The notes below the pieces were generated by a model. The model saw only the letters and a program-made list of their open reading frames with translations. It did not search any database and had not been told where the DNA came from. A program made the position numbers and the translations under genes. Below, in pieces: positions 15,301-56,200 of a stretch of 64,000 nucleotides of DNA (position 1 is the first letter of the stretch; each line of letters opens with the position of its first letter). The stretch comes from Chondrosia reniformis (lineage: Eukaryota; Porifera; Demospongiae; Chondrillida; Chondrillidae): NCBI GenBank assembly GCA_947172415.1, contig OX359202.1, forward strand, positions 5,256,899 through 5,320,898, in the 5' to 3' direction.

Positions 15301-18300
15301 CTTGGAGCAGTTGGTGGGCCGTTGGATCTCAGGTGAACAATTACTTCCTTGAGGTCATTCTGTTTCTCAATCATTCTGTGTCTCTTCTGTATCTGATACC
15401 GATCTGTCGTCTTCCAGAAGTAGTAGTATGAGACTATGCTTTTGATGGATTTCCATGGTAACTGGAGACAAAGGTAAACATATGTATGTCAGGGAGCGGT
15501 ACGTACATGAGCCTTATAGTCGTTAATTAGATTAATTTAAGGTGATTACTTTGAAAATTGAATTGGGTGTGAGAATTTTCAAAATAAGTGTCAATACATG
15601 TTTTTACATAACTTAAGTCACAAAAATACTCAAGATTTAACATTTAATAAAATCTAAATTCATTGTTGGTACTTCAATCAATACTCTTATATACACGTAC
15701 GTATTTATACTATTTTCCACTAAAGACATGGTTAACACATTAATATGGGCTAATAGGAAAAATTAGAATAGACAGTATCTATAGACTTTAGATAGTCAAT
15801 TTTAAGTACTAGGCAAATACATGTGAACAGATTCAATTATTTGGTAAACACTGATCTTTATGTACAGACATGTACCCTAACAGTGTCACGATAACACAAT
15901 GATACTAATTACTATCAAATTGATAATCAAACCACAATTATGTAGCTATTATAAAAAATGCTTATAAGATGCCAGATTATAAACACCAAATAAGCCAGCC
16001 AAGTTTAGGCAAAATTGATGATACATAAAGAGTAAACATTGACAATAATTGTTCATAAAATATCACATTTTAAAATACACATTTGTCAGCCATATGAAGC
16101 ACGTAATCATCTGTTTCCACTCTAGACTTCATATACGACCTGCTTACATGCTTCTTCTGAATGTAGTAGAAGTCTTTGTATTCCTGAAGACCATCCTCAA
16201 ATCGTTTAGCTTCATCCTGTGTCCACGACTCCAACTCATCAGCACAGAGGAGAGGTCCACGGGGGACAAGCTGGGCCACTGCATCACCAATCTTGTAGGT
16301 GCTCTTGTGAAGTGTGTCCATACCGTGAAAGAGAGTTATATCTCGAGAAGCTGCTGCAGCTCCAAGACGTAAGCTGATCTGGGGCTTTCTTGACCCATCT
16401 AAAAGAGCTCTGGCAAATGTACCGACTGACCTACGTATATTATCACATAAAATTGGTTAAACATGTGGCCATCGGTCAACTTCTGTATATTTACTGCACA
16501 TACGTATGTACGTACATATAATACCTCATGAATGATGCTACAGTAATTCACCCTCTGCACACACACATATCAGAGATCAACTCAGCTACACACCCAGACA
16601 CGCGCATGAAAAATCTAAGATACCATTTTCCTACATCCTATGCCAATTCTGTAAAAGAGCCTATAGGGGAACTAAACCTGAAGAGAGCTTTGGCTTTGAG
16701 AGCATACCCACCCACACATGTGCACACACCCACACATGTGCACACACACACACATGTGTACACACACACATGTGTACGTACACACCCACCTTGCCACCAC
16801 CAGGTACTGCTCAACTTCTTGGTCACTTAACTTTCCGGGTTCCCAAACCTGAGTCTCCACACTAGCGTCGTCCTCTTTACTCTGTGAGTCACTGCTGGCT
16901 GTCAAAGGAGGAATTTCAGCCTGGTAGTCCTCCCCCACTCGTATCTCTCCCTTGTCTACCATTAGATTGCGCTGGTTTGGATCATACACCATCGAATAGA
17001 AGAAGAAATCCTCCTTCTCAAGGTAACAAGCAAGATGGTCGAGCTCATTCAGCAAGTACACTGTACACTTACCCCTAAAGATAACATGTTAAGAAAAAGA
17101 AATATTCATTCACCTGTTACTACGTATACGTACATACTTTTCCTATCACATAAGAGCCCTGATCTGACCTTTGACCTGTGAGATAGTACACAGGTCAAAC
17201 CACAACACCTCTAGACTCATATTAACATCAAAAGAATGACATAAAATTTGGGCAAATGATTCGAAGCCTAGAGAAACGAGACCATTGTGTCCATTTGTCC
17301 AGAATTACATAGGTATATATTTAAAATCTTAAGAACCAAACAATTCTTTTTATTGCTTTTTGGAAGTTACGTATGTCTACCCAAAGGCCTATATCAGTCA
17401 CTGAAGTAGACCCTCAGGGCTGAACACAAGATTAAACCGACTGAGTCTTTAGAGGCTCAAAAAGGTGAGAAATGATCCTTTTAAGATAAGCTTGAGGAAT
17501 CCTTATTATATTAACTGTATACAATTTATACAATGCCTTAAATCCGATCTTACGTACGTAAATACAGATTCCAATGCATGCATATGGTGACACATACAGG
17601 GTATGTATGTTCATAGATACATTCACACTCGTTCATGTAAATAATCTCTACTTCTCATACGACATTGGTTGCTAGGAGATTAACTTACCTGACCATGTCA
17701 ATCTTGTATGTTTCAATTTGTCGTGAAAGAAACAGCTCACGATGCTTGATGAGATGCAGCTTGATGGAACTTAATTCCTCAACATAGCTTCCAGGAGGAT
17801 AACCCTCTTCGTTATTCTCCTCCTCCAGAGCCACTATACAATGGTGATGCAATCCAGCTAACTACGTATAACTAATTCAAAGACTCCAAAGAAAAAAGTT
17901 AAAATATGCTACATCTACTTTAGAGTAAAAGGCCTAATAGGGAACTAAACCTAGTGAGAGCTTTGGATGAGGATACAAGAGTTTTCTCCTCATTATTCTC
18001 TTTTTCTCCACTCAAGCACGTCTTCTCATTGTGTCATGTCACATAAATTGGTGTACATTGATGATATACACAATTGTTGTGTACTGTTACTTTACTGAAA
18101 TGATAGGGAGTATTTGTTGTGATCACGATGAGCTAGAAAGTTATTGAATTCCAACAAGAAGGAATTCTTTAGTAGAACGTTTTGACCCGTGGATCTTCAT
18201 CAGCAAATAAGAATGCAATAGGAAATTGGTGTTTATATAGAGGTAGGATGACAGTTGGTAAAATGTTAGTTCATTATACTCCATAATAAATTACTATATC

Positions 18301-20180: not shown

Positions 20181-23100
20181 CTCCACTTTCACTCTCCTCT
20201 TCCTGTTCACTCTCATTATAACTGTCATCATCATCCTCTTCCTCCTCATCAGATGTCACCACATGATCTCCATCAGAATGGGTCTTTTCGTCAGATTGAC
20301 TCCCTCCACCTAATGATTTATCTTCCAGTAACAGAGAATGCTGAGATGATGTTGCCATGGAAACAGCTCTAGCTGCGGCCGGCTTGGCCTTGTGAGTTAA
20401 GCAGACTTCTTTGGTTGCCCAGATCCTCACTGTACCATCATCACTAGAAGATGCCAGGAGATCATGCTTGACGGGATTCCAGGACACACAATTCACTATT
20501 CGGGAATGACCCTCCAACTTGGCAATCGGAGAAGTTTCCTTTAAGTTCCATATATAAACCATGTTATCTATATAAGGTATAGATATAAACCATGTTATCT
20601 ATATAAGGTATAGATATAGACCATGTTATCTATATAAGGTATAGATATAGACCATGTTATATAGGTATATAAGGCATAGATATAAACCATGTTATCTGCC
20701 ATAGACTGCCTTTTAATTGTGGTATTAAATTATTGCATTTTGCTGCATTGCAAGCTGATTGCAGTTCAAAGATTGCATTTTTCGGTGATGCCATTTCTTC
20801 ATGGCTTTTTTGGCTTTTTCCACTACTCTCGGTGAGAGGTCTTGTCTCTTGTGCTGTAGGCATAGGCAGCTGCTGTGGCTTAGCTTATAGACTCCTTTCA
20901 CACTAATAATCCGCGTGTCATTAATGATATCATAAAGTAACTAATCCTTAATAATAAAATATACATTTTTGTGAAAACTTTCGCAATTCGTAATTGTTTG
21001 GTGGTTGCAATTAAAAGGCAGTCTACGGTATACGGGGTATAATATAATATATAGACCATGTCATCTATATAAGGTACACATCCAGTCAAATGATCTTATT
21101 TACTACAGTACTTTTCGGGTCGGTTGTCCAGACCAGACGTTGGAATTGGTAAAAAGGTTATCGCTGCATGGTGACATCATTTCAGTGGGAAAGTTTGTTC
21201 AAAGGGTAGTCATGAGTGCTAACCAATTACCAGTTGCAATGTCTGGTCTGGACAACCACTCTAAAAAGTACTGTATACAGCTGTCCTCATATTTAATAAA
21301 CACAAAACAGGAGTGGTGAGAAACAAAAATAAGCAGAAAAAAGAGGTGTGGCAAACTGTGTTTATTAACAAGTGAAACTTAATTGAGTTAAATATGTGGG
21401 GGAAGGTGTGTCAATTGGTGGTGTGTTTATAATTAAAATGGCTGGGATATCAAACTGTAGATAAAACTTGTGATGGAAAAACTTTGGAATATAAATGTGA
21501 TGATAGAATAAGGATTTCTTCTAACTGCGTTGAACTTATCTTTTGGAAAGGGTCATCTTTCGACTTTGGGAGCATCTAAAAAAACTGCGTCTCTAGACGC
21601 TCCCAAAGTCGAAAGATGACCCTTTCCAAAGATAAATGTGATGGTTCCGAAGGATGGAAGCAAGCAGATATACGTGGGTTTGAGGTAGTAAAAAGTTTTG
21701 CCCTGTGTACAGGGTGTTGCTGTATAGTTGTCAAAATGTTTAGTCATTGAAACTCTAGACACTGTGTCATATTTAAAGGAAGCAATGCATTGTCCTCACT
21801 ACTTGGATCCCAAGTGTATCTATATCTAATAATAATACAGTTTTTACATTACTTTTTACAACAACAACGTTAAAAATGCACTCTAAAAACATGTTATTAA
21901 TTAATATATTAAAAGCATCCAAACAGTCTACAAAATGTGAAAATCTAGGAAAATTGAGGCAGAATGGTGAAACAAAAGTGATAATCTTGCAAATTAAGGG
22001 GATAATTGGTGATACTTCCAAAATTTCAGAAGATAACCTCAGAATAACATTACTAAATCAAATTATACAAGACTTCTCAAATATATGTACGTATATGTAA
22101 GTTAACCTTCACTTCCGCTGGCAATAAAGCTTTCATTGTGGCCTCCAAAACAGGAGTGAACGGTGTAAAATCCTTGTGTAAGGCCTTGAAACCTCTGAAC
22201 AAATGAGCAATCCTCAATGTTCCATAAATGAATCGACTAACCAGAGAAAGATTTACTAATTACAAGTTACTCTATTCAACAACTGATTACATATGTATGT
22301 ATGTACATACATAATATATACTGTATAAATAGTACTACTTCCTGTACATACATAATATATACTGTATGAATAGTACTACTTTCCTGTAGATGCAGTGGAC
22401 ATGCATATGAAGCAAATGAAACATAGAAATAGACTATTTTCCTGGATATATCACTTAGGAAAAACTTATAGAGCCTTATAATCAGTATTTACGTAATTGT
22501 AATATTGAAATCAATTCAAATCAAATTAACCCTTTAAGGCCGTCAGCCACTTTAGTGGCTTTGACCGTTAACACCCATAAGGTAAAATAATTGTAGAATC
22601 TTTTTGTAACTTGCATAATCAATAGCGCTAGTATAGTGTAACATACGTGTGAAATATTAAACGTTTCTGTTACAGTATAACTGTATAATGAAAGAATGTA
22701 TTACATTCGTATTGCAAGTATACAGATTACGAAAGTGTTAACGAAAAACGCATAGTTTACGGAAGTTATACTAAAAATATAAGATGGCCGTCTAAACGAG
22801 GACTAATCTTCTTAAACGAATTTTACATTTCTTACATTTCTTACATTTCATGGTCTTTTGAATATCATCGAAGGATCTTTGGAAGGTTTTCAGAATTAAA
22901 GAATTTAAAAACAGAAATATAATAGGTTAGAAAAGGTAGTTTTTACTCATATGCCATTAAAGTGGCTAACGGGATTTAACGAGTATGCGTTAACAACATG
23001 CGGGACTTAAAAAGACAAATTCATTGTCAATACACAAAAGTTAAGATTGTTGAGAAAGAGAGACAATGTGTAAGTGTTAGTCTTAGCAAACACGACTATT

Positions 23101-26100
23101 CCAATTTTAATATGATAGTGGCAAAACAATTGTAGCAACTTGTCCTTATGGTTTTAAGGTATATAGTATTGTATGTATGTACATGCTAACAGTGTAACAA
23201 ACATAAACATGAGAAACAACAAAATGAACTCACTTGATCAGAGAGATTTAATAATAAATAATTTCCCAATTTTGATAAGCACATTGACATTACAGGATGG
23301 TCCTCTTGAAAACTACAAAAAGCAAGACAATTAATATGTAATAGTTATTACACACTCTGCCCCTAGGTTTTTCTTGCATTTTCGAGGGATAACACAAGCT
23401 TATAGACGTTTACTGAGTTTTTGGCGGGATACACTATTGTGTAACTATAGTAAGAGGCCAAAGTACCTCTTATACTTCAGTTGTGGAATATAATTTGCCT
23501 TGGTTGCCCTAGCAATGGAGTGTATCTATGCATGTACACTGATTGGATGTGCCCATGTGTTCACTTACAGGGGAGTGAATTTTGGTTCGGAAAAATTGTA
23601 GGATCTAACTCGATGGTGAGTGTCTACTGCAATGGCTTCGTTTGTTTTTGGGTGGGCAGCTACAGCCTGTACCCGCACTCCCTCCCAGGTCTCCAACACA
23701 GTGCCATCTGTAGACTGTAGACAACAAAATATACTGTAGACTGTAGACAACAAAATATACTGTAGACTATCTGTAGACCATATGTACGTAGGTAATATAA
23801 TATACCATACATGTACGTATATATATTAATGGTGATTGAGCATATCTCAGCTTCTCCTATATTATACAGTGGTATATTGATTAACCAAATCATCAGCTAT
23901 CCATACACTTTTGAGTATTACGTAATACCAAAATGGCTACTGTTAAAAGGAAGCGAACAGTTATACGTTGATATTTTTGCGAAAGATATGCCAGAGGAGC
24001 TGAGACAACATTACTATCTAAAGAATATGAGGCAGGAAAGTTGACTGTAAGCAATGTCAAGTGTTATGAAGATGAACAGAAAGAGTTTGTTTTGAAATTA
24101 GACAATGTCTGTGTATGTATCTTACAGTGAAAAATTAGGGGACTTTAAGATCTGAAACCAATCTTAAAGTTGTGATGTCTCATCATTACCCCACCCACTC
24201 ATCATTACCCCACCCACTCATCATTACCCCACCCACTCATCATTACCCCTCCCACTCATCATTACCACTTTAAGATCAGCTTCAGATCTTTAAGTCCCCT
24301 ATTTTTCATATTTAGTGATCAGCCACAATTTGGCTATATCCCTTATCTACTGATAAGGAAATCACAAGCTTTTTAGTTTTGGGAGTTTTTATCAGTAGAT
24401 AGCCACTCAAAACTTCCATCATATGCCATACTGATGAGTCCTAATAAGGATGAAACAGCTGTCTATGGCTCAACCATCTCTTTGAGTGGCTAAGGGGAGA
24501 CTCTAGTTCCCATTAAGTGAACTTCAGTTCCACCCATTAGCTCATTGTGCTCCTCAGGGGTAAAATTCAGAGTCAAATTATGAGACATTTTATTTTATGG
24601 CAGTGTCAATCCTGAATTAGTTCATAAAATTCCACTGCACATATTCACACTTCATTTAATACATCACAACTCATAATGAATTAGTGTACACTAACACAAT
24701 CATAGAAATGCCCTTTCAATCCTGCACAGAAAAATCGGTTTCCATTCCTTTGCCAAGCACAACTGGTCAAACTGTCCTCAGAACTCTTGTTAATTCGACA
24801 TTTCAAAGCACCAGTCTGAAGGAGAGAAGAGCAGTAGTGTCAGGATCTATCATTTTAATAACCATTTGCCTTAAGAGGCTAAGATACACTGAAACACTAT
24901 AGCGCAAATAAAGTAAAAATACACATGAAAGATGAATCTTCTAGAAATATGTAATTAGTCACAACATTATACACATACGTAACAGAGCAATTAAATCACC
25001 TCTGTGTCAAAGAGATAAACATATTTCTCATCTTCTTGTCCACATGCTAAGAGCAAGGCATCATTCGGACTCCATGAGAGGCAAGCCACTCCATGTACTG
25101 GGACCTTTATGACATGTAACTTCTTTGGCAGTTCCTATGAATATAGTTTAATTCATCATTATTACTGCGGCCATAGCAAAACAAAAGTAAAACAGCAAAA
25201 CACTTGTGGTTGAGGAAACCGAGGGCTAAATATATGTACGTACATGTATCTAAATATATCTCTACATATGTACTCTGTAACCACAGCCCATAACTTAATA
25301 AAATACATTTTCCTAGTGGAACATATAAAAGTTAAAGTAAAACCACCATAATAAGCCTCTATATATAATAGAGAAACTGAATATAGAAACAATGGGATAT
25401 ATAACTGAAGGCAGCTTTAGAAGGGACAAACCTCAACGTCCCAAATGATGATTTCCCCTCCCTTTGATCCGGAGGCTAGCCTCTTTCCATCATTAGAGAA
25501 CTTGACATACCACACCTTAATGAATGTACAAGCACTGTGATAATGACACCACAACTATTTCAGTATACCAATATCACAAAGAAGGAAGAATGTGAAAAAG
25601 TAGTAGTCACTGAAAAAGGGCCCAGGGCAATGGGATGTAAGTGTACAAGTATGTGAGTGTGTGTGTATTAAGCCAGTGCAATAATGAGCTATCATTATTA
25701 TCACACAGGTTTAATGTGCATCTGATCTTCAGACATGCATACCTCATCTTTATGATCAGACAGTACATGAAGTGTTTCGGAGGGTATTTGATCTCTAACA
25801 GAAATAAGGTGAACAACAACAAACAGGTAAAGAACAAGGTTGGGTTACGTACATACATAGCAAATGACAATCTCAACACATGAACGTTTGTTATTAGGCA
25901 ACGCAAAGACAGGGAAGTACAACCCGAAACCTGACACTAAACACAGTAACTCTGACATGACCAACCTTAGGTCCCTAGGGACTAGCATTCTAGATTATTC
26001 ACAATACTGTATTCAACAGAGTGTTAATCGGCAATCAAGGGCAGTCAAGAGGTCCTAATTAGGGTGCAGAGGACCCAATCAGTATTGGGTGACTGATCTG

Positions 26101-29100
26101 GGAGACCTCACCAGCCAAGCTATTAGGGGATAATATTACCATACCCCATATCTACCTGTATGCAATCTGTAGGAGTTTAAGAGATACCGTTTGACAGAAT
26201 CCTCTGTCAGCAAAGTAAACAGACACCAGACAGAATATAACATCAATTAAATTATTTATTTAATACTAAAAATTAAGATTCAAGGTTTAATAGATAGGTT
26301 AAAACAAATAAAGAAACCCATCTTATATTTCTTAGCTGGTAGATTAGAAGAGACATGAAGATCTGGCTATAAAGAGATTGACTCAAAGAATATAGATTGC
26401 ACAGTCAGTATTTCTGTACTATTGACCCTACATTGTACAGCCAATGGTACGAAAGGAAAATGATATCAAAGAGCGAGATGAACTACAGGGTACAGCCAAT
26501 GGTACGAAAGGAAAATGATATCAAAGAGCGAGATGAACTACAGGGTACAGCCAATGGTACGAAAGGAAAATGATATCAAAGAGCCAGAGGAACTACAGGG
26601 TACAGCCACTGAAGGTCAGTTCAGGGGTACACTCAACATACAGAAAACATACAGAAAACAGGCACTTACACTAATAATGCACCAACGGGGCAGTACACTT
26701 ACTTGCTACACATGTGATTATGAAGCAGCGAATATGTGTTGAGATCGTCTCCCTGACAATGATATAAACACTTTTCTGTCTGGTAGAGAAGTGCCTGGTC
26801 TATTATGGTCTGCAGTCGGTGTGGGGGCAACATAATGGATGCCGGAAGGTAAGCTACAAGAGGACGGAGGATATGGAGTGTAAACAGACATTCTTCAAGC
26901 TAAACTTGAGGTTCACAGTGATAAGGGATTTGGGGACAAGCACAGAAGATCAGTGTTCTAATGTACGTACGTATTAGACCATGAGGTGCCATTTTTTTGG
27001 ACATGTACATACACTCACACATACACACACATGTACGTACACTCACACATGTACACACACCTAATAACTTATCCATCAAGCGGTGTCTGGACCCTCCAGA
27101 GGCTCCAGACCAGTCTGCCTCTCTCTGAAGCTCCACCGGGTCCTTGTACATCATAAGACTAAGCAATGGTAAACAGAATGTCTGTAAGTACACTGTGTCA
27201 GTAAACAAATACTGGCTAACAGTAACCTGCCCCTCCCCCCTCCCCCTCCCTTCCCCTCCCCCCTTCCCCCTTCCCCATTCAGTGGATGCGATGACTTCAT
27301 TTATATCTTAATCATTATAGAGGGCGGTAGTTGTATGTACATAGCTACGTAGTTTGGTATCTATGTATATGTACGTATATAATAGATAATTAAAATCAAT
27401 AATGCCCATTCCAAACCAGTATGTATGTATATACGTATGTACGTATACATAATAATTAAACTTACGAAGACAACTTTCTGAATCGTTCATCTTTACTTGA
27501 ATCAAAGTAGAAGGCTACCTCCCTTCTGAGACACCAAAGAGCTTCCACGTGATGGTTTCCTTCCAACAGCTCCAAATACCTTTCCTCAGCCAATAACTGG
27601 TGCATTACCTACATCATGAAGACAGTCAGAGAGGACCAGAGAAGTACATCACAGAAGTGCTGGGTTCACCTCACACACAATAATAGTCTAAGGTTTTAGA
27701 GTAATTTTACAAGATATTTAAACTAATGGATAAGCTGTCTATTTGAAGTATTGATAGAAACTGAATACATATGCACATAAATATAGCAGTCTCCGGGGTA
27801 AACCCTTTCATCAACATCATTACTTTAGGGGTCACAATTACTCAACAATATTCAACTTGTAAGATACTGTACATCTGACTACATATCATTATTATGAGTC
27901 AATGCGGCCCTGTACTCATACAATTAGATATATTCCCTACCTTTTTGTCTTCAGGAGATTTCATGAGCAACTCCATTTGATCAAGTGTCTGATGTGCCTG
28001 GTAAATGATACCAAAACATGTACATATGTAAGTACATGCCTGTGTGGGTGATTGTGGTGTACATATGTCAATAATTCACAAAAGGTCAAGAAAAAGACAA
28101 AGATTCCCAGGGTCACTGATGAAGGGTGGAATTGCCAGAAACAGCTGTCTGACCCAGGGGAGAAGAAGAAGAAAAAGACAACGCCTGTGTCTTCATCCTA
28201 AGCTCTCACCAGGTTTAGTTCCCTATATGCTTTTTAATTTATCACAGAGCAGGCATAGCATGTAATTATTCATATGTAAGGAGCATGATATATCATACTA
28301 TATTGTAGCCATCTGACAAACCAATAATGATCGCAACAAGCACTCCTTATTCCTTCGTATGTACACATATACAACTGGGACCATTACAACTATTCTCACA
28401 ACACTTATCAAAATAAAAACCTTAGAAGTTTAAAGCATGCAAAACATTTTATTCATAATATATAAAACAGGAATAATGTACTGATTGGGTGCCATTAAGG
28501 GGGTCTTCTTATATGACAGCAGCATTGCTAATTGTAGTTCCTTCACTGTATGTCTGTATAATGATGAGGCTGAAGATCAATGAATATGAGGGGTGCATAG
28601 GAAAGACTGGAGATAAAATAATAATGAAGCAAGCTTTAGAGAAATACTATGAGAATTATTGGCTACCATTGCATACTACACTCTAAGGATTGCAAGGTTT
28701 CACACTCAGTTAAGCGTCTGTTAGTACACAGAGCTAAGTTTCTGCATTACTGGATAATATGGATTTCATTTCACCAAGATTAATAATGAATGAATGTTAC
28801 TGAATCCATTACTTCATTGAGTCATTAATTGATTTGGAATTGTTTCTATAATCATTTTAAAATTTCAAAATTGAATTTTCAAACAACAAACATGCACAAG
28901 CACAACAGAGAGGAGTACCGATGCTAATCAGAAAGTGGTCAGAGTTCTCAAGTGTCTGGTGGACAAGGCTATCACTGTGCCCTTGCTACAGGTGGGACAG
29001 CTAACCAGCCGGGCTTATCAGTAACCTCAACACATTCCTTTACATCCTCCCTAGTTTTGTTTTGAGGGATTAGATAATACAATGGAATCTCTCACTCAGC

Positions 29101-31692: not shown

Positions 31693-34600
31693 TTATAGTG
31701 AAGTATGCAAGCACTTGAATATGATAAGAGTTGCTTTGTTTGAGAGCTTATGTGAATACATAAAAGACGGGACCTGGCGACAACTGGGTAGACTGGTAAG
31801 TTCTTCCTTGACAACTCTCTTCTCAGCTTCATCCATTCCTTTGCATATTTTCTATAGTTGAGAATAACAAAGTTGTTTTTAAGATCCATTGCAGAAAAGA
31901 CAAGTAAATAAGTACATTCTAGAGACAGCCCTAGACAAAACAACTCACTTTAAGAAACAACAGCCTCTCCTTGCCTGTAATAAAGTAAACACAGCCAAGA
32001 GCTAATGCTTTCATGCCCAAGTGATGATAAGACTTTACAAAGAAAGCCATGTCCAATGATAATAGGAAAGGGCACCTACAAAGAATAAGACAAGATTTTA
32101 CCTTTATACTCTCACAGCTCACACGTCACTTGGCTAGGAATTTCCTTTTAATTCAAAAGGCAAACCCAGTCACTAAAACCTTACTCTAGTAAGAGAAAAA
32201 AAATTTCAGTTAGTGATGCTTCGGTGTCTTCAGTGAATGGAAGAGAGACATCCTTCAAAGGTTGCATTAGAACACAATTCCAGGCATCAGGAAGACTGGG
32301 CATCTAGGCAAGTATAATGAGGAAGCAGATTAACACATCTTGAAGACCTCTTAGGGCTTGCTTTCATGCTGAGGCTTCCTAGCTCATAACCTGTTTAACA
32401 GTCTTCTAACTGTTCCTCTAAATGGGCACAAACTAATAAAGAATGTCTGACTAGAATGAAATCTTACCTTCAGGGCATCAGGAGCAGTTTTCATAAGTGC
32501 AACCACGCAACGCCTCAGAATTTTGACCTGCTTTAGTTCCATGAGGCTGGCAAGCAAATACTCCCAAAGAACTTGATCAAATATCTTATGGAAAAGCATC
32601 ATGTCCACAACCAGATCCAGAACCTGACACACAGTACATGAAACACCATTCCATTAATATTAAACATATCAGCAATACTGTACATACGTATATTGCACAC
32701 TGGAAATGTCAACATGTACGTATATATACGTTGAGTAATTGCAACACTATGTAGATTTAATGACCCGTACCGATGTCTTCTGTAGGAAACTGCTAAAGAG
32801 GCTCAAGATATACATACTTACTCATTACAGATAACAAACAAAAACTCTATCACTTTATAAGTACATACGTATATGTGATATATGAAGTTTATTGAGCAAC
32901 AGCAACATTAAATCTTTGGAATAGAACGTTTCAACCCGTAGGTCTTCATCAGCAATATGAAAAAAGTGAGGAAAGTAATATATCAATAAACTTCATATAT
33001 CATCATGATCGCGACAAATAAGCCCTATCACTTCTACGTATATGTACGTATACATTCAATATTCATAGTAGTCATACACAATAGTCTATTATTTCTTGTC
33101 GACATACTGTAATCCTAATATACCATAAGTTGAATAAGTGACTTCATTTCAATTATTATTGAAAGCATTTATTTTGCACTACAAATCAAACTGTTTACTA
33201 GCCAAAAAACAAGCATTTCAATAATTCATTAGTGCAAGTGAAACTCTGTTTGAATATGGGACAAGAAACAGTTGGCATGTATGCCTTTTTCTATATCAGC
33301 AATATACTGTACATACATTGCACACTGTATACCACTACTCTGTTATGGTCATACTAGGGATGCAGCAGTGAGATTGGTACATAATGGTATGTCTTGGGGT
33401 ATGTTAAATACCTTATGTAAACTAAATACCTCAAGTTTACATAGTGCAATTAGTTGTGGTTGAATAACAGGAATAGCAAAGCCCTTGCTACCTATCCTAG
33501 ACACCCACCCTTGCTTCCTTCTTGTGGTTCTTAAGTAGTCCCTTGACAAAAGCCTTTTTATCGCAGGATATGTAAGTCTTTGGATCAGTGTAAATATTTA
33601 AACTATCCAATTTGGCCACAAACTGTAACACCTGGTGATAATTCCTGAGTAACAAGAAGAGATACATTACTGTAACATATAATTAAGGTGTTAATATATT
33701 ATGACCTACGTATATCCTGTTTCCATATTAATTTTCAGCAAAACTAAACATATATTGAGTGGAAGTTAGATAATAAAATCTGTAAAGTATACATATCTGT
33801 ATATGTACATCAAGGTTTCTATAGGGAAGGAGTGAGCACTTGCCCCACCCCCTTGAAGAAGTTAAATTGTCAATGTTTATAGTAAATATTGAACTAGGTT
33901 GCCCTTCAAAATATAAACATTTTGCCCCTCCTCTCTGTGATATTTTAAAAAAATAAATTGCGCATATATATATAGAATCGAAAAAATCAAGAAAATGAAG
34001 AGTGGCAGTAACTAATCCAGATGCTATAGTAACATAACAGCTGAGAACACTTAGGCTTGCATACATTATTTCCTGGACATCCCTTTTGGAAACTTCCTGA
34101 ATCACATCTGAGGGAACACAATGAAGCAGCACCTTCAAACCCATCACCTGAGATTTGTAAGGGAAAGTCCCTGAAGGTCTCTATGGTGTAAATGGACAAA
34201 AAAGGTTTATCACGTACGTAATGTAACAAAATGAAGAGAGTTAAATGATAGGGATTTCCTCTAATGGTGCCAAACTTATCTTTGAGATGGTACATCTTTA
34301 GTCTTTTGAACATTTAGAGACAACTGAAGACCCCCAGGGTTAAAACATCTGAAACCCACCTGTGTCCAGGGTTACATAGAGTGTAGGGGTTGATTTTGCA
34401 GCCCTGGTCCCAAGTTCTGCATGCAGCCCTGGTGTCTTTAGATGCTCAAAAGACTAAAGATGAACCATCTGAAAGACAATTACTGATTACCTAAATATTA
34501 GATTTCAAAAATTTAAGAGATTCCTTAATGGGTTACAATTTCAGTGACCCACTTACGTAGACACCCTTAAATTAGAATATCATCCAAGTTAGTGCAAATG

Positions 34601-37600
34601 AATGACCTTTCTTACTGTTCCATACTCACCTTGGCTATGTTGAGCAAAGTACAGGTGTTCTGCACAAACATCTCTTCTTCACTTACAAGGTACACCAATC
34701 TAAAGAGAAGAAGAGAAGAAATTGTGATTAATTTCATCTAATAGCATTAACTTGAAAGTTTTAGCTTCATCAACAAATGTTCCTTTGGGATTAACTCTTT
34801 CGACCCAGAGGTCTTCATCGGTTGCTGAAGCACACTAATTGATATATACATCACAACACACAAATACTCCCACTCCCTTCATTAAACAGCACCACATACC
34901 AGTACACATACGTAGGATTCTAGGTGTAGGTAAACATATTTCAAAGCTTTGACTCAGAAAAAGGAGCTGCACATTTCTTATAAAAAACTACTAAAATATT
35001 TGTTATCACATTGATAATTAAACCACAATCATTTCAATTACAAAATCAGATGAAGAAAAAATGAAATTAAATAAGCCAACCAGTAGTGTTCTGTTGCTAA
35101 CCTACAGTACCGGAGTAATATGTACCCTCAAGGCTCAAAGGCTACTAACACTGTATCTACCTTTGAAAAGATTCCTCTTCTTCATCCATTTTGTCTCCAG
35201 TCTCATTAGTGGAACTGCCTGTTGTCACAAATGTGTCATCTAAAGAGAGCTGGGTGATATCCAAGGTCACATCTAGTGGGCTCTGCTTCCTACTGCCCAG
35301 GCTGAATAACCACAACTAGTAGATAAGATGAGACTAAATGCAAAATATCTGTACAAAGGCTATGATGTTAGGTACGTACGTACAGATAATCTCTGTAAGA
35401 TATTATGCAAAACTACCCAGTTGATCTAATATTGGTTGGGGGACCAAAGTTCTATTAAAAGTGGCAAACAGTGATGGCCTTCCAGTAGTCCAAGATGGAG
35501 TAAATAATCAAAGAACCACAGACAGCTGTTTCACCCTCCTTAGGGCTCATCAGTGTGGTACACTTTGGTGGTGAGTTTAGACATTAGATAGAGACACCTA
35601 CCTATATATACGTACATCTATATCTGGACATTCTGTAACGGAACGTAGTACATACATACACAGTTATGTCTAGAAGTAATAAACATGTTCAGAGCTGGAG
35701 CCACTATATTAGATCATCTTTTCAATTCATCTCCTTCAAGTATTTTCAAGTCAAAATAATTGAATGGAAAAATGATACATACGCACATACTTTAACTTTT
35801 TATTTATAACTAAATACACAGGCTTAATAAAGAAATAAAGATGCGACTCTGTTACCTCAATCAACTCTGCCTTAATCTTTGATAAATCAAAATCGGAAAT
35901 TTTAGCAATTTCTTTAGATAGATTGTGAATATTAACATCTAAAAGAAAATTAAGAATGCCAAAATTAACAACACAGCACTGGTGTGCCCTACGTATGTCA
36001 ATACTTACTCAATCCACACAACTATTAGGAGTAATATAGCCAACACAAAATTACAAATAAAACTCTCTATTGGCTCTAAATTATAGTGAACGCTGAACTA
36101 TATACTCAAAGTTTAGGTTCCACTCAAAAGATAAGTTTTCACTCTAAAGTAAGTTTGATGAATGTAGAAGAGATTATTAAATTTTTATTCTTTACACAAC
36201 ACAGTTAAACCTCCTTATTTCTATAATAGAGTAAGGATCCCTTCTAACTGCATCGAACCTATCTTTTGAAACACTGAAGAAGAAGACCCTCAGGGTCGAA
36301 ATTCTGACAGCCAAGAAGAAACAACAAAACTGCGTCTTTAGACGCTCTAAAAGTCAAAAGATGATCCTTTCAAAAGATAACTCCTTACTTCTATTTGAGT
36401 CCTCTGTGCTGACTGGAATAACAGTGTACAGGTGCTTGACAAGCTCAACGGGTTGTCTCAATAATGACTGTGCCTCAGGATCATTAACACCACTATTCTC
36501 CATCAAATGTCTCACATGAGCCAGGCTTACTTCGCTCTGGACAGACTGATGGATGTTAACTGCCTCCTCCTTTTCAATCTATATCATTTGAAATACAAAA
36601 TTAAATCAAATAGAAAGTTCCATTACACTAGTCTTAATCAAACAAATGGCAAATTCTTATTTTATTATTTTTCATTATTGCTGCTAGGCTGACATGCTCA
36701 AAATTTATAATATTAACTACTGAGTTCCTTAATCAAGGCTCTGATTTAAGCACTGGAAAACATATCCCATTCTTCATGAATAATCTAACAGTGTATACTT
36801 CTAATCTGCCTTGATCAGTAATGTAGTATATTAACAAAACCTGTAGTTATGTCCCTATTTGTTCATGAATAATCTAACACACCTTTTTCTTACATGCTAC
36901 ATCTACTTTAGAGTATAAGGTCTATAGGGAACTAAACCTAGTGAGGGCTTTGGATGAGGATACAAGAGTTTTCTCCTTCCACTTCTCTTCTTCTCCATTG
37001 GGCCATGCATGGCTCAGTGGAGAAGAGGAAGAAAAAAACCTTCATCTTCATCTAAGGCTCTATAATCTGCACATAATCTACCCTAAGTTATAGGCACAGG
37101 AAAATGGTGTCTTTAGTTGCTTTTTGTAAGCCTCACATCACTAATTGCCTTGTTGATCCACTCTTTAGCCAAAGTAGCAGTCTGCTGTAGTACTGCAATG
37201 CACCCCTCTCCTAGGACAGTCACCAGAACAGCTAACAGCAGCACAAGCCATGTCATTGAAGACAAAACATACAGTACCTACCTTGGACAATACCTTTAAA
37301 CTTCCTACCACATAAGACTGCAGTTTTTAAATCACCAATTTGAGCAATGAGCTGCATCAGTCGTAGACAAAGTTGTTTGTTCTCTGTAGAATTCTTTGGT
37401 TTCTGCTGATTTGCAAGATTCTTGATAGTTTGAACAAGAATTCTATCATTTGTTATATTAATCAATGGACCGACTTGCATGATCTCATCAACATTGCAGA
37501 CGTTCAACTCGGGACCTAAATACGTACGTACACAGGTATGAAGTGATGAGGCTTATTTGTCGCAATCATTATGAGATATGAAGTTTATTGAGCAACAGCA

Positions 37601-40600
37601 ACATTAAATATCTTTGGGATGGTACATCCTTCGACCTTTGAGCGTTTAAAAACGCTGACTGAAGAAGACCCCCAGGGTTAAAACGTTTGATGAAGAAACG
37701 AAAACAAACTGCGTTTTTAAACGCTCAAAAGTCAAAGGATGTACCATCCCAAAGATCGATAAGTTCGACGCAATTATAAGGAATCCTTATTCTATTAGCA
37801 ACATTAAATCTTTGGAATAACGTTTCAACCCGTAGGTCTTCAATTTAGAGTACACTTACGTACGTAGTTATATGACAATTACCTCTTAGATTGCATAAAT
37901 TAATCAAACAACTCAGAGGGGCTAGGGGACCATGCCCCCAGACCCCCTAGGGGACCATACGTACCTTCAGGTACTAGCACCCCCTCCCAAATAAAAAATC
38001 TTCCTATGTAGATTGAACCCTGACTATATTTGGTCACATTTAGCTGAACATAACACTGCAGGAGATTGTTCAACATTAGCAAGTTAAACCATATGTAAGT
38101 ATAAAAGTACATTTAGGGACCAAATTATTTGGTTTTGACAGTGTTACTTGCCTACAAAGACAACAGAAAACTATTTAGAATGGAAAAAAGCTTTAGTGTT
38201 TAACCAGATCTTTGCATCCCATATCCTACATACGGATATTGTATTATGTTCTTTCTGTTACTACTCTACCAACTAACCCAGTATTTTCAATGTTTCTCCC
38301 ATAACAAGAGGTTGATATGGCAACCTACAGCTGGAACAAGCTGGCAACTCCATTCTCTTCTCTTTCTCATTTGCATCAGCCTTTGAAACATGCTTAAGAT
38401 AGTATTCCACTTCATATTCACCTGGCGGAGCATGCCTCTTGTAAGACCTCAGCCATTCCAATATCGCCAGTCCCTAAGGACCATAAAATAGGACTAGTAG
38501 TCTGGCAAGCCAGACCTCACATCTGCTTATGTCAAAAATGGTGTGTCAACATGGATTGAAAAGGGTAGTGAATCTATTGCTCTTTTTACCTTCTTAACTC
38601 TGCTTATGCTATCTCCCTTATCAGATATGTCCTTTATTTTTTGAAGGATAAAATGGAGTCTTTTATAATCATAAGGAGAAACCTGCACCCAATGGAATGG
38701 AATATTTTAGAGCACAAATTAAATAGGATGCTGTACATACGTATCTTATATACTTTAAGCATATGTCAGAGTCTATATTTCTATGATAATCACCACAAAA
38801 TCATTGAGCTGGCTTTGGGAATAAAGAAACTTACTTTGGAGAGGGCATTTGTGAGAGATCGCAAACCATCTCCAATTGACAGCTTCTGCAGCAGTTCAAC
38901 TGCTTTCGGTTCATAGCCCTCCTTCCAATTTACGAGCAGAGTTGAAAGGTACAACACCAGTGTCTCAGATGTTACTAATTGCGTATCTCTAATATACGTA
39001 CATAAAGTTACAACAATGATAAAGTAAGCCAGTGATGATGGATATTGTTATATAGTACGTACATCTAAAAATACAACCACAATTCATTGGTGGATATTCA
39101 AAACAGCTGTATTGAACCGAATCGAATCAATCAAAAAATGGCAGATCAAGATGGCACTACCATGTGTTAGCGCTGAAGAAGGAAGAGTTTAATCATCAGT
39201 AACTAAATTCTTTTGTAGTGACTAGATTTCTTGATTTATTATTACAAATTTTGCTATCTATCTGATTTATTGTCTGTATATTAAACTGGGACACATGAAA
39301 AGTAGCCTTCTTTGGCTAATGGGATACCCAGTATAAATAAGATAAGTGAAGTAAACATGTAAATAAATATATCAATCTCAGAACAATATGAAAGCATCTT
39401 TACAATAGACTGTGAATCACAACCCATTTCACTAGTACAGTAATATTTATTTTACAAGAGTTAATTGACCTGACCAACCAATTAAGATGAGACTTTGGTC
39501 ACTTAGTTGGTCAGGTGTAATATATACAATATCTCCCTGAGATTATATTTCTACGTATATCAAATTTTACATTATGTATAACGCCAAACCAGCCAAGTGA
39601 CCTAAGTCTAATCTTGGCTGGGGGACCGAAGTCCTATTAAATTGGCAACCAGTGATCGCCTCCCAGTCACCCAAGATGGAAAAATTCATCAAAGAACCAC
39701 AGACAGCTGTTTCGCCTTCATTTGGGCTCATCAGTGTGGTACACTGTGCTTGGCGTGATACTTTCCAGTGAATATTTTGCTTATCATCATAGCCTTTGCA
39801 CAGGCCAAGTGCAATTAATATACACATATCCTATACCTGCAGAATTCAAGGATCAGAGAAAGAGGAACTTCCTTTATTTTAAACAATTTGTTTTTAGTGG
39901 CATCTTCGATCTGTCTTCTATCTGGTCCCATAGCTTCTGAGAAGTCAATCTATATACACAAAGGCAACAAACAAACAAACAAGTCACTAAATGGCAATAT
40001 ATCATCTACACACTACCTTGAAGTGATAGGGCTTATTTGTTGCAATCATGATGATATATGAAGTTTATTGAGCAACAGCAACATTAAATCTTTGGAATAG
40101 AACGTTTCAACCCGTAGGTCTTCATCAGCAATATGAAAAAAGAGAGGAAAGGTTGGTGTTCAAATAGAAGTTGGTCACTTTTTTCATATTGCTGATGAAG
40201 ACCTACGGGTTGAAACGTTCTATTCCAAAGATTTAATGTTGCTGTTGCTCAGTAAACTTCATATATCACACACTACCTTGTATCTTCTAAGTATCTTGCC
40301 CCATTTGGCCTGTTTGAAATACTTCAAGGCTGTCTCTTCACTAGCCTGCTGGCGCATGACCTTTGCATAGATGTACGCTAGATTGGCCAGTGCCTAGCAA
40401 CCAAAAGAGAATTACAGTGACACTAGTCCTGCTGTTACCTGTGTGTTGATGAACACACATGATTGAGCAAGGAGTGTACCAGAATATTTCCTAACAGCTT
40501 AGCAAAATGGCCACTAATTCAATTTTTTTCAATTTTACCCTTCTATAACCCCCCATCCCCCATTATATCTTTTTACTACCACTTTGGTAAGTTTTGAGGT

Positions 40601-46600: not shown

Positions 46601-49600
46601 TCACATCTTGACCTACAGGATTCTAACCTTTATGTAGTCAAGCAAAACTTGGTTCACATCAAATCCGTGTTCCTTGCAGTACTTCTCCACGTTGCCCTTG
46701 ACAATACCAGAGTACATCTCCACAGCATTGACCTTATCCAGCATCAGATAGACAACCTCCTTCCCACCTACCTGTGTATGTGCATTTAAATTGATAGCTA
46801 AACCACAAGTATTCATTTGTAAAAATCAGTAAGAGAAAGAAACTATTGCGTGACACATTCAAACCATCTTATCACCTCAGAAATTTGTTCTATGGTGACA
46901 TCAGTAAAAGACAACTCTTTGTGGAGGTATCGCAATTCTTCTAATCTACTCAATATTTTCTTTAACATTCCCACCACCTCTGTCTGACAGGTCTATCCAA
47001 TGAAATTACACAGAAATATACACTAAAAGTGTTGCAATAACTAATAAGATCAGGGTCTTACTCCTGCAAATGTGTCTGCTTTGGCTGCAGCTGCTGGAAT
47101 GATTGGATGCTTCTTCAGCTGCTTAGTCAGAGTGGTGACTTGTGAAAGAAGGCTCTTTGTTGACTCAATCGCCTCATTCAATGGCAACTTAACATCCAAT
47201 CTAAACAAACGTTCAACAGAAGTACCGTACCACTCAATAAGCCATCCCTATGAAAACAAAACATGAAAATGTAAATATCATTAAAACTGTTGTCAGTAAA
47301 TAAATGTCATGCATCATTAATAGTTAAGATGACTCTATTGTATAGCTATTTAGAGGCATTATGCACAAATCACACATAGTAAATTACACAGCATTTATTA
47401 TTAAAATGATATAAGAGTCAATATGTTCAAAAGTAGCCAAATACATATATCAGTAACTAGTTAAAAGGGGCTGAGGTACTAGTTGGAAGCTTACAAGGGG
47501 CTGAGCTACTAGTTGGAAGCTTACGAGGGGCTGAGCTACTAGTTGGAAGCTTACAAGGGGCTGAGCTACTAGTTGGAAGCTTACAAGGGACTGAGCTACT
47601 AGTTGGAAGCTTACAAGGGGCTGAGCTACTAGTTGGAAGCTTACGAGGGGCTGAGGTACTAGTTGGAAGCTTACAAGGGGCTGAGCTACTAGTTGGAAGC
47701 TTACGAGGGGCTGAGATACTAGTTGGAAGCTTACGAGGGGCTGAGGTAAATGTTGAACCAAAAAGGGTATCACTGTCTTGCACATCAAAGAAATCTCAGC
47801 CAGGGGACTGTCCCCAGGAATGCATTCAAAGAGACCATGAAATATGTCTATCTGTAACTCATCCAGCAATGCTCTCTAAAAATGAACAGGACAAACTAGG
47901 ACAGTTTAACCACATATTGCAAGTATGTGTGTGCACATATGTGTGATGACCTCTGGCTATGTAACGTAGTATGCAGACATAGGTGGAGGGGTGCATGAAT
48001 TGAACTGAAGCAGTCCTTGAGGATATACTGATACAAACCTGATGTCTTTGCCAAATAAGGGAAGCCTGTAACAATCTTCCCTTCATGAGCAAGATCTTAA
48101 GTATTTCACATATCTCTGCTGACATGAAGATGGACCACACTTCAGGACTACAGAGAATGGCACAAAAAGTTGTAAAAAACATTAGAGATTTTGATGAGGT
48201 AAATTAATTTTCCACTACAGCAATTGTAGGCGGTGTTTCTTACTTGAATCCATCCGATTCCAACATTAAACTGTAAGATGCAAGTCTGTGGAGGGTCCTT
48301 TGGTTCTCTAATAAAAGAGAACTTTTCATAGACTTGGAGGCTTCAGAAACATCAAGAATCTAAAGAGAAATATCAAGAATCTAAAGAGAAACATCAAGAA
48401 TCTAAAGAGAAACATCAAGAATCTAAAGAGAAAGTAGTGTATGTAACGTTATCAACATTTATATCTGTATCATAAACGAACAGTTTGAGGATACTACTGT
48501 ATATGCATGCCTAGACTCCACCACCCATCCAAGAAATTGCCCTCGAAGCTCATTGAAACTAACTTTCACAAATATTAATAAATTTGACCAAATATGTATA
48601 CGTATACGTATGTACCTAAACTACATACTGTATACAATCAAAGACAGATTTTAGCCAAAGTAGGGATGATACGCCCAAACAATCGAAGTGACGTGTATGA
48701 TTAAGTTTCAGTATGCCACCTCTGAATGTTTAGCCTGACTACTGTATATGATACCGTACTCTCTGATTTGTCTCATTAACTCACTCTTTTCTGGCAATAC
48801 TGAAGTAGTCCAGTATAAAGATTTTTGTCTTGTGTCTTTACTGCATAACACATCCTGCACACAAAGCTTACATCCTGGAGAAAAGGGAAGTGGATATTTC
48901 AGCAGGTCTACCACATGCAATGGAAGTCTATTACAGAGTATTCCATTCATACACACACTGCATACATGAACTTAATGCAAGTCCTGAAAAGCATATATAC
49001 ATGTTATTAACTAAATCTGCCAATATTAATATAGCATGGAAATTCACTCCATTTGTCATGCTTCATACATAACGGTACATGGGACGAAGATTCCCAGGAT
49101 CACTGATGAAGGGTAGAGTTCCCAGAAAGAGCTGTCTGGCTCAATTGAAAAGAAGAGTTTAAAGTAAAAGCCTATAGGGAACCAAACTAGATGCTCAAAA
49201 ATGTTAGATTATTCATAATGTCAACTGAATCTGACAATGTAAATATAACATGGGAAATCTACTCCATTAGCTATATGATTCATATGTAATGGTACGTACT
49301 GTACATGTTCTAGTTGATTAGCTAAACTATATACTAACTGATACTTTGTTCAGACACTCTAACATCACTGCCAAATTTTCAGTGTTTTCCAATAAATATT
49401 GAGACTTGCTCTTGTAAAATTCCTAAGAGGATTTGAATCTCAATTAAGTGACAAATACATACATATCTTTCGTGCAATAAATAATAGTATTCGTGAGTCA
49501 AACTACAAATGTAACAGTGCAAAAAACATTAATAAACATTAAAATAATGTATATATTATACATATAAATTATCAAAATGATAATCAAATCACAAATCATC

Positions 49601-50190
49601 ATTCTCAAACATCATGAAGAAGGAAAAACACGAAAAAGAAACAATTGCTGGGAATCAAACCCAGGAGAGTTGGTTATGAGTTATGACCACCAGTGCTCTA
49701 CCACTGAGCTACAATTACCACAGCAATGCTCCATTCATGTTTCCCTCACCTTTCACACTAATTATATAGTACATACATGCATGCATATACTGAAAAACCC
49801 TTAATATTAACGTCCATTATATTTAGCGTTTTACTGTATATGACTTATTAATGTCTAGTGTTTTGTTGTAAATACTTGCTCCACACTACTGTGCACGCGT
49901 AATAATTATGCATAAAAACATTTTAGCGACCATAAATGTTAGCGAATGATATTGCATCGCTAATTTCGCTAACATTAATGGCGCACTAATATTAAGGGTT
50001 TTACAGTACATACATACATACATACATACATACATACATACATACATACATACATACATACATACATACATACATACATACATACATACATACATACATA
50101 CATACATACATACATACATACATACATACATACATACATACATACATACATACATACATACATACATACATACATACATACATACATACA

Positions 50191-53200: not shown

Positions 53201-56200
53201 ACTGTATTTAATGTTACATGACTCTCTTAAATGAGGAGTAAACCCCTTAAATTAGGGATGGCCCTAATTAAACTCTTATTGATAACAATAATTAACCTAC
53301 AAATTAAACTAAATACCCTGCCTGCAGTGTCCCATGAAATTGGATGTCCTTTACCTGTTGTGCCTCTGCTTGTACTGAGACACTCAGCATCTCGTCACCC
53401 GAGGAGGAGACATCACAGCCAGTGCTGACCAGTGTAAGGTCACTGGCCTTTGCCACATTCCACACATCAATCAGACAACAAAGAAGCATGGACCACAGTC
53501 CTAAAGAACCCTACAACACAGGATTTAGACAATGTAGAGCTATATTATCAGCAGATGACAGAGAAAGGTTGTTTGGGCATGCTTCAGATTGACTCCAATT
53601 AATATCCATTCTTCTAGGTATCTGCCTTTACTTAGGAGACCATCAGACTGACATACAGTAGTTCTCAGGGTCATTGATGAAGGGTGAGATTCCCAGAAAC
53701 AGCTGTCTGGCTCAGTGGAGCAGAAGACTGTATCCTCATCCAAAGCTCTCACTAGGTTTAAGTAGGCCTTTTACTCTTAAGTAGACGTAGCATGTACAAA
53801 AAATGTTAGATTACTCATGGTTTTGTTGTATAAAACATAGGTGTGCGTGTGTTGTGCGTGTCATATATAGAGTGTATTGCCCACATCTGATTGGAGAGTG
53901 ACGAACAATGAGTCATTTCTGACCACTGCAAACTTCCTCACAACTGTCCCTACAGAGAAATCAATTTGAATAAACAAACACGACCTTTACCATGTACTAC
54001 GTACTGTAAGTTTACATAATCTATGTACCTCAATCGCTTATGTATGTACTGCACGTAGGTGCTGATTGCATGGAGCTATTAGTATACATCATTGTCACCA
54101 TGGAAACCATAATAGTTTATAAACTAAACATCTATAGTTCCAATTTCTAAAAAGAGAAGTTTGAAGAAAAACAAACTTTCTGGTGTCATGCCAAAAAAGG
54201 TGATGGAGGTTAAAGTACCACATCAAATGCTACAAATTAATGACATCACCGGATAGCCACTCCATGACATCCGATCGCTCCTAACAGGAAACACAGCTGC
54301 AGTCTGTTATATATTTCATCAAATTAAACTCCTTTTCACATAAGACACACCTTGATAGGATAAATTAGATACTTAGAACAATGCCAAGGGGCGGAGGTTA
54401 ATCAAATTACAGGTAGATGGATGTCTATTACGTTGAACTATATACTTTGGATTTAAATAGTATATACACACACTATACGTATGTGTGTATACATATAATT
54501 TATATAGCACATCCCATTAATCAGAGAGTACAGTGGTACTATCTATGTAGGGATGGCCAAACACCATGGCTGTCCATTCCAATGTATTATCAATTATCAC
54601 CTAAAATAGAGTAACGACAAAACGAATTTTGGTTACATTCAACTAATTGTAATCATCTACGTATATTTGCTTTTTAGCATGTTTCAATGCTTTCCAATAT
54701 TCACAAAGTAGCTAAACAGCTCAATTCTGATTCTTTTATCTTCTTATTATTAATCTCTGGTGTAGCATCTTTTTAAATACCACAGACACTACATCAAGTC
54801 CATATGGATAATTGAATACCTGAACATTCACTGACTTAATTCCTACATCTTCTAAAATGCATACCGTACTTTTGTTCAAATATTAGTTAAATTTGATCTA
54901 TGAATTCCACATGGATGCCCCTCCATGACTTCAAAACAATAAACAATGTCATTCCTGGTAATTGGTCAGTGCCTTAAATTAATCTCAAGAGACCCTCAAG
55001 CGCATTTGCTTATCTAACTTTCTATTCTAATTCAAAAGAGCGGAATGTAGGTGCCGTATTTGGCATCTGTCACACTACCAATGACATGACCTACATAGTT
55101 ATTTACTATTTTGCATTATGAAAGTGTTGCTTAAACAAACATTAAGAACTTGGATTTGATTTCTGTATTAAAATTTTTATATATAATATGTGTTTGTTCT
55201 TAGAATAAATATACGTACAAATATACGTACATACTATAGCATAAATCTGTCTGGCCCAGTGGAGCAAAAGAAGAAAGAGAAGATTTCTGTATCCTCATCT
55301 AAAGCTCTCACCAGGTTTAATTTCCCTATAGGCTTTTTATTTATTACAGAGTAGGCATAGCATGTAGGAAAATGGTACATTAGATTATTCATATCATCAC
55401 AACCACTCTCTAGGGTGACATATGTAGTATATGTATGTATGGCATTCCTATAGTATGTACCTGATATTGAGTTAAATCTGTCAGATTCAATAACCTTATT
55501 CTCCTTTCGGTCAAAAGTCCAAATGGACAATGAAGATGCATCGTCCTATATATATATATAACACCGGGTATACGTACCATTACCTCAATGTCACACATTA
55601 TATATCCTCAGTTATGCAATCCCCTTCATCCTCTTCTGTTTGGATAAGTGAATAATAGTGAATATATTGTATATAAACCAGTAATATTTATGAATATAGA
55701 ATCTTTGTCTTCAATAGTTACTCTCTTTCTCTTATTTTTGACACACTAGTAGGACCTGTCATAGCCCCTATTTGATTCCTATTTGAATTATATGTTGTAG
55801 TGCAAGTTACGTAATATTGCACATTGTTATGCAATTTTCAAAGACGTCTCTACATGTGGGTATCTCAACCACAGCACATACACTGCAAATGATGGTCCAA
55901 CTGTCTCTATAGAAACCGGCAGAAACAACTGGATCCACTGGCACCTTCAACACCTGTCACAGTCCAAAAAAAAACAATTGGAACATTTGATCATAAAATA
56001 GAATATATAACAATACTAATATGTATAACAATATTACAATACAATTAATAAGCCTCATGAATACCTCAACTCTTGGTTGGGACCCACCTCCTAAGAAATA
56101 GAACAACAGTATACACTAATCATGGTTTCCATAGCAACGTGGGTAATGCAACAGGATACAGATATAGCATAGAGGTAATAGAGCGAAACATACAAATCAC

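Follow-up and report, generated by a model that had tools for sequence, protein, structure and literature searches.

Is the hammerhead motif that lies in an intron of a WD repeat-containing protein 26 (WDR26) gene of the sponge Chondrosia reniformis a ribozyme serving that gene, or does it belong to something else? We addressed this question in the window, that is, the whole stretch of 64,000 nucleotides analysed here (C14:5256899-5320898), and in the genome from which it comes (117,379,552 bases in 15 contigs). A previous inspection of the letters alone (the sequence-only reading) had described the motif as a hammerhead of the animal-retroelement type, and its letters, core and stem pairing are as described there. 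Beyond that reading, we found that the hammerhead is one old, rearranged copy of a dispersed repeat, and that two more retrozyme-type and three minimal hammerheads are present in the same window (Table 1). Our preferred reading, to which we assign a probability of about 0.86, is that the window contains a single old and incomplete copy of a small non-autonomous retroelement, namely, a metazoan non-LTR retrozyme, and that the hammerhead is its processing ribozyme.

Table 1. Hammerheads and associated repeat features in the window (position 1 is the first nucleotide of the window).
Feature	Positions	Strand	Remarks
Type I hammerhead (inner stem I, core, stems II and III)	24425..24469	+	Rfam RF00163, 32.2 bits
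Outer stem I, 5' strand	24400..24411	+	12/12 complementary to 24481-24492
Outer stem I, 3' strand	24481..24492	+	12/12 complementary to 24400-24411
Palindromic stem III, ACAGCUGU	24455..24462	+	Dimer: 4 bp without loop; monomer: 2 bp and AGCU loop
Predicted cleavage nucleotide, C17 = C24463	24463	+	From the established hammerhead core; product 5' end would be 24464
Direct part of family-1 retrozyme unit with hammerhead	24268..24588	+	Unit 155 through cleavage site to ~141 of next turn
Inverted partial copy of family-1 unit (positions 137-196)	24129..24186	-	83% identity; head to head with direct part
19-bp minisatellite between inverted and direct pieces	24179..24273	.	Array computed
Family-2 retrozyme copy	39576..39818	-	Hammerhead 39696-39740; inverted partial piece 39751-39818; Rfam 30.2 bits
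Family-2 retrozyme fragment	35425..35565	-	Hammerhead 35515-35559; absent from Rfam list at E 0.01
Minimal hammerhead in Naiad-type PLE pLTR-like fragment 28082-28264	28110..28155	+	Own model, 30.7 bits
Minimal hammerhead in Naiad-type PLE fragment	53668..53713	+	Own model, 24.9 bits
Degraded minimal hammerhead in Naiad-type PLE fragment	49097..49142	+	Own model, 14.8 bits, E 0.097

The window copy has the anatomy of a type I hammerhead, with the invariant core CUGANGA...GAAA, the nucleotide H17 and three stems, stem I being the open one. In the window letters, the halves of the inner stem I are GCCATA and TATGGC, the core elements CTGATGA and GAAA occupy 24431-24437 and 24452-24455, respectively, stem II is made up of GTCC and GGAT with a G-U at the outermost pair, and the halves of stem III are ACAG and CTGT, followed by the cleavage C at 24463. 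Both a stem I internal loop and a hairpin loop II are present, the two elements that would take part in the putative loop-loop tertiary contact known from natural hammerheads, and the two strands of the outer stem I (TAGCCACTCAAA/TTTGAGTGGCTA) are fully complementary, as the sequence-only reading had it; its placement of the predicted cleavage after 24463 likewise agrees with the position of the hammerhead core. With our own strict motif scan, the window yields three hammerheads of the full type I form (24431 on the plus strand, 35553 and 39734 on the minus strand), compared with 0.015 on average for a dinucleotide shuffle, and no hammerhead of this strength occurred in 200 shuffles. Since the shuffle counts are far below three, we rejected a chance origin of the motif, as the earlier judgment that the match is too long for chance had implied.

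The Rfam model Hammerhead_1 aligns with the motif from end to end with an E-value of 2e-6, a value that holds for a search of 301 bases only. However, the covariance hit above threshold that had been expected for this copy did not materialize, as its score is lower than the gathering score of 34 bits, and a scan of the whole window at the gathering score listed two tRNAs alone and no hammerhead. The two tRNA-like sequences over the Rfam threshold are located at 44023-44094 and 49640-49718, both on the minus strand. In the whole genome, the same model gave 65 scored matches (73 scored of 11,921 candidates in the search), of which 51 places elsewhere pass the cut-off, and none in 14 control genomes. 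The window copy is thus a hammerhead by its anatomy and by its membership in a repeat family whose members pass the Rfam threshold, although the copy itself falls below it. In a model of our own, built on 36 distinct relatives with the three retrozyme-type hammerheads of the window included, these three score 67-74 bits, and the one at 24425-24469 scores 73.6 bits.

The folding of the motif bears on the form in which it might act. The segment 24398-24494 folds with a z-score of -4.6, and the lowest-energy fold of the hammerhead is without stem III, the CUG of the core being paired with the CAG of stem III. The stem III sequence is its own complement, and according to fold prediction, its monomer form is unstable, at +1.5 kcal/mol with respect to the open state, while as a two-strand duplex it reaches -11.1 kcal/mol. 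The loop-less ACAG/CTGT stem III proposed in the sequence-only reading stands for a dimer, but the same letters can also be drawn as two pairs closed by a tetraloop. Being weak in the monomer and strong in the dimer, stem III fits the view given in passages of PMC7761336 that a weak helix III often keeps the monomer, but not the dimer, from cleaving itself. The same passages describe a stable helix III in most invertebrate motifs, which cleave as monomers.

The surroundings of the motif show what kind of sequence it belongs to. The stretch 24268-24560 is 88.6% identical to a 354-bp unit found elsewhere in the genome, starting at unit position 155, passing the cleavage site and ending at 97; a further tail, up to about 24588, was traced using a match of the genomic locus L016 that reaches 24586 and by eye from the letters, with some 17 unit bases absent after 24560. 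The minisatellite between the inverted and the direct pieces resembles an inverted GAGTGGGCAGGGGTAAT stretch of the 354-bp unit, from which, judging by the letters, it may derive. We also considered the inverted repeat 24131-24177/24260-24306 as an independent MITE, and rejected this since it maps inverted to the retrozyme unit, although 60 bp of it are also present by themselves in the locus L046. The window copy is a single partial unit without a tandem partner, and its flanks show no clear target duplication by eye; therefore, it cannot give a monomer circle, and as to mobility, it is most likely an inert relic.

Relatives of this copy are dispersed over the genome. A query with 24310-24520 returned at least 45 matches including the window itself (40 scored of 658 candidates), and 39 of the other 44 span nearly the whole query with 86-90% identity; exact matches to the hammerhead core number 229 genome-wide, versus none for the reversed pattern. 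We distinguished two families. The unit of family 1 is 354 bp long and non-coding, and the locus L014 holds two such units head to tail, whose cleavage sites are exactly 354 bp apart. The unit of family 2, which has two members in the window, is 359 bp long and occurs in 4.5 tandem copies in L064, the largest number seen. Both families include exact tandems (354 and 359 bp) as well as head-to-head inverted pairs. The G+C contents of the 354- and 359-bp units are 45.2% and 42.9%, the longest ATG reading frames in the tripled units have 40 and 51 codons, and their RNAs fold far better than shuffled sequences (z = -6.9 and -6.6), respectively. The two units are 70% identical over about 160 bp (203-359 versus 202-364), a part that includes the hammerhead, and the other ~200 bp contain no alignable sequence in a direct comparison. 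The two families hence look modular (L014:1597-1911 (-) and L064:973-1331 (-), related at 203-359 and unalignable in the rest), and the break between the related and the unalignable parts of the unit falls where many insert ends lie.

We next consider the evidence that the ribozyme has been maintained. In an alignment of all 36 distinct hammerhead 45-mers, four of which are cut in stem I by a breakpoint, 94.0% of the cells pair, compared with 26-44% when the partners are slid, and none of 500 shuffles reached the covariation score. Three pairs, two in stem I and one in stem II, are altered on both sides between families 1 and 2, and L004 in family 1 has a double change of its own at the end of stem I. 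Neither the number of pairs with double-sided changes (3) nor that of further pair types (11) lies above the shuffles (488 and 498 of 500, respectively), so that the measures exceeding the shuffles are the number of doubly changed cells, the covariation score and the percentage paired only. The covarying changes represent few events, mostly a single split between the two families. Using one copy per family as the reference unit, we found that the hammerhead 45-mer differs at 12 of 900 positions in 20 younger family-1 copies (289 of 6640 in the rest of the unit), at 18 of 350 in eight older family-1 copies (203 of 1960 elsewhere), and at 14 of 675 in 15 family-2 copies (336 of 3214 in the rest of the unit), with a bias in favour of this outcome from seven of the 43 copies (L002-L008), which were found via the hammerhead and of which L007, L002 and L005 are among the main 35. 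In both families, the hammerhead has changed less than the rest of the unit, which suggests that the ribozyme is of importance to the replicating lineage.

The ends of the inserts provide information about how the copies arose. At 30 + 16 chosen loci, with both arms of an inverted pair counted, 43 of the 50 outer 3' ends of family 1 are located at unit positions 135-149 or 188-205, and 25 of the 27 of family 2 at 137-155 or 189-197, leaving seven and two ends, respectively, outside both clusters; none of the 50 or the 27 lies within 6 nt of the cleavage site. These loci were found with queries spanning the cleavage site, which favours inserts across it. When we used a query of unit 200-315, which stops 39 nt before the site, none of the 20 runs (17 distinct) ended at the site, and the runs ended at 116-201. 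The lack of ends at the cleavage site indicates that the inserts run across it, which is what copying from a circle or from an uncut multimer would produce.

Direct repeats shared by the two flanks average 9.9 nt at 23 family-1 loci and 8.9 nt at 13 family-2 loci, a set that omits L036, overlapping loci and loci from the Rfam search, compared with 5.4 and 5.7 nt for permuted flanks, and the observed mean was reached in none of 300 permutations. At least 10 nt are shared at 18 of the 36 loci (14 of 23 in family 1 and 4 of 13 in family 2). Several of the shared stretches are AT-rich simple repeats, thus not every one of them is a target duplication. The inverted-pair loci L011, L012, L017, L019, L027, L029 and L031 are among those with 12-14 shared flank bases, suggesting that the whole pair was inserted in a single event. 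Among 100 of the 229 core matches, neighbouring cores within 2 kb are divergent in 11 cases, convergent in none and in the same orientation in 10, one of which (C5:1988136/1988417) joins two different families. For GIY-YIG matches (150 scored of 382 candidates), the pairs within 6 kb are divergent in 12 cases, convergent in one and in the same orientation in five.

These data allow us to weigh the rival that fares best, in which a LINE-type reverse transcriptase mobilises linear multimeric transcripts and the ribozyme plays no part in making the template. Elements with RVT_1 are abundant in the genome (at least 150 scored matches of 1,688 candidates), inserts across the cleavage site could come from uncut multimers, and according to passages of PMC11167929, the ribozyme of a PLE is dispensable for the insertion of that element in vitro. 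However, the reduced divergence of the hammerhead in families 1 and 2 speaks for a ribozyme of some importance, and the head-to-head bias of the inserts matches that of the GIY-YIG elements in this genome, the group with which the inserts were compared. On balance, we consider a LINE-driven origin unlikely.

We therefore turn to Penelope-like elements (PLEs) as candidate helpers. Two kinds of PLE are present in the genome, for which we take Naiad and Poseidon to be the appropriate clade names, and the Naiad-type carries a hammerhead. In L047, a reverse transcriptase is followed by GIY-YIG, both in one frame; in L048, a reverse transcriptase piece was tested, GIY-YIG was read by eye, and the locus forms a 1,960-bp head-to-head inverted pair with 99.6% identity. 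The head-to-head PLE pairs of L047 and L048 adjoin long minisatellite arrays. L045 has a frame of 997 codons with GIY-YIG near its start (Pfam 21.9 bits, cut-off 22.6); a Pfam search of this 997-residue frame returned no reverse transcriptase, which was recognized by eye from motifs (YIDDLLC). L046 has a frame of 1,010 codons with a GIY-YIG match. A minimal hammerhead exists in both L045 and L046, and in the former it is present twice, once on either side of the frame, at a distance of 3,501 bp. Rfam listed no hammerhead in four PLE loci even at E 1, and the PLE hammerheads rest on our own model (21 bits, E 0.0011) and the letters.

Traces of both kinds of PLE are scattered in the window. The fragment 28082-28264 is 76% identical to the repeat that flanks the PLE reading frame in L045, and fragments of this repeat are also located at 49083-49156, 53663-53727, 55266-55392, 16605-16691, 36864-37005 and 17927-18000, three of the seven containing minimal hammerheads. 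The stretch 37609-37797, and also 36279-36380, 34248-34316 and 21499-21582, are similar to the ends of the Penelope/Poseidon-type PLE in L047 and are partly inverted repeats; 37614-37752 obtains Rfam microRNA precursor scores far under the thresholds. Three PLE protein pieces had no match in the window at E 1e-3.

How closely are the retrozymes related to these elements? The 13-mer GAAACAGCTGTCT has five exact matches in the window, in two Naiad-type fragments and three retrozyme-type copies, and none in shuffles, and L045 and L046 carry GAAACGGCTGTCT instead. Outside the hammerhead, the retrozyme unit shows no similarity to L045, L047 or L048 among the matches listed, in which minisatellites dominate, and the matches to the unit in L049 are retrozyme copies. 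In L046, 60-80 bp of the terminal hairpin region of the retrozyme alone (3971-4046, a 79-bp match) lie upstream of the Naiad-type frame. As the matches listed show no similarity between the PLE loci and the unit outside the hammerhead other than these 79 bp, the link to PLEs rests on the insertion anatomy and stem III, and the insertion anatomy favours PLEs as mobilisers.

The same data bear on a second rival, in which the hammerhead would be a solo pseudo-LTR of a decayed PLE rather than part of a separate retrozyme. In its favour are the presence of two PLE kinds in the genome, one with a hammerhead, the 13-mer common to two Naiad-type fragments and the three retrozyme-type copies of the window, and the similar insertion anatomy. 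However, the exact tandems of 354- and 359-bp units have no coding part, hence no reverse transcriptase and GIY-YIG of a PLE, the unit is not similar to L045, L047 or L048 among the matches listed, the 79 bp matched in L046 are absent from L045, and stems I and II of the retrozyme hammerheads are of the longer form. This makes a decayed PLE a rather improbable source of the motif.

Under the retrozyme reading, the cycle might run as follows. A tandem copy would be transcribed, and its hammerheads, probably paired via the palindromic stem III, would cut the RNA after C17 into monomers of about 354 nt, which a host ligase would circularise. A Penelope-like reverse transcriptase would then begin copying at a 3' site, some 140 or 195 nt downstream of the cleavage point, and pass the rejoined cleavage site one or more times. 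It would insert the product, often together with an inverted head-to-head partner, and about 10-14 bp of the target would be duplicated. Retrozymes are in this scheme probably copied from circular or multimeric RNA by the genome's own PLEs. It is also conceivable, if quite doubtful, that the palindromic stem III shared by retrozymes and Naiad-type PLE fragments (GAAACAGCUGUCU) could let their RNAs join in trans as hybrid double hammerheads, with the PLE transcript licensing cleavage, circle formation and packaging of the retrozyme RNA, before the reverse transcriptase copies around the circle.

As for the host gene, the minus-strand frames on both sides of the motif have WDR26 as their best match in a search of solved structures (six exon pieces strung together give E 2.3e-64), and the motif lies between an exon inside 24684-24839 and an exon inside 23568-23825, and hence in an intron. 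The location claimed earlier was therefore right, but not in the sense of the gene: the hammerhead is on the plus strand and WDR26 on the minus strand, so the WDR26 transcript carries the complement of the hammerhead and the pre-mRNA cannot form it. The window copy could at most cut a plus-strand transcript that is antisense to WDR26. Recruitment of the ribozyme for WDR26 regulation, through intron processing or antisense control, is suggested by the intact core and the intron location, but we rejected it as highly improbable, because the motif is antisense to the gene and one among many dispersed copies, and because most members of the family have an intact core as well (54 of the 61 copies collected). 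Thus, the hammerhead is probably not a special switch of WDR26 and has little meaning for that gene itself.

Rather, the hammerhead extends retrozymes, and possibly genome-encoded circular RNAs too, to a sponge, and with it to a lineage that branches close to the root of the animals. Our literature search, with supplements and most subscription papers outside its reach, returned no report of a sponge hammerhead or retrozyme; PMC7229834 is without the terms sponge and Porifera, and PMC7761336 contains sponge once, in a reference title. Passages of PMC7229834 propose LINEs or PLEs as mobilisers and call PLEs a strong candidate. The insert ends turn the PLE link, which is only proposed in the published model, into a concrete and testable one: the inserts run through the cleavage site, their ends cluster at other positions of the unit, and they are arranged head to head like the GIY-YIG elements of this genome.

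The sponge family displays several features of a retrozyme, namely, short hammerhead tandems, low G+C content, non-coding units and shared flanks of more than 4 bp. As described in parts of PMC7229834, the metazoan non-LTR retrozymes of coral, mussel and axolotl likewise have a type I hammerhead in AT-rich non-coding units of about 150-450 bp, occur as dimers to multimers with target duplications of more than 4 bp, and have a highly self-paired unit RNA and PLEs in the same genome. In contrast to them, the elements found here reside in a sponge host, fall into two families (354 and 359 bp) that do not differ in stem III, are known here from DNA alone, and in many mapped copies are single or head-to-head inverted rather than arranged in long arrays. 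The weak or loop-less stem III, suited to a dimer, and the tandem arrangement are shared with the minimal hammerheads of PLEs and Terminons (passages of PMC7761336 and PMC11167929), but the sponge units differ from these in having a stem I with 6 bp in its inner and 12 bp in its outer part, and in being non-coding. Compared by description in PMC7229834 passages, the satellite hammerheads of newt and axolotl have similar units of about 330-350 bp and a weak palindromic helix III, whereas the core matches in the sponge number hundreds and are dispersed, rather than tens of thousands. We are thus dealing with a real hammerhead of an ordinary kind, in what is apparently a new host phylum.
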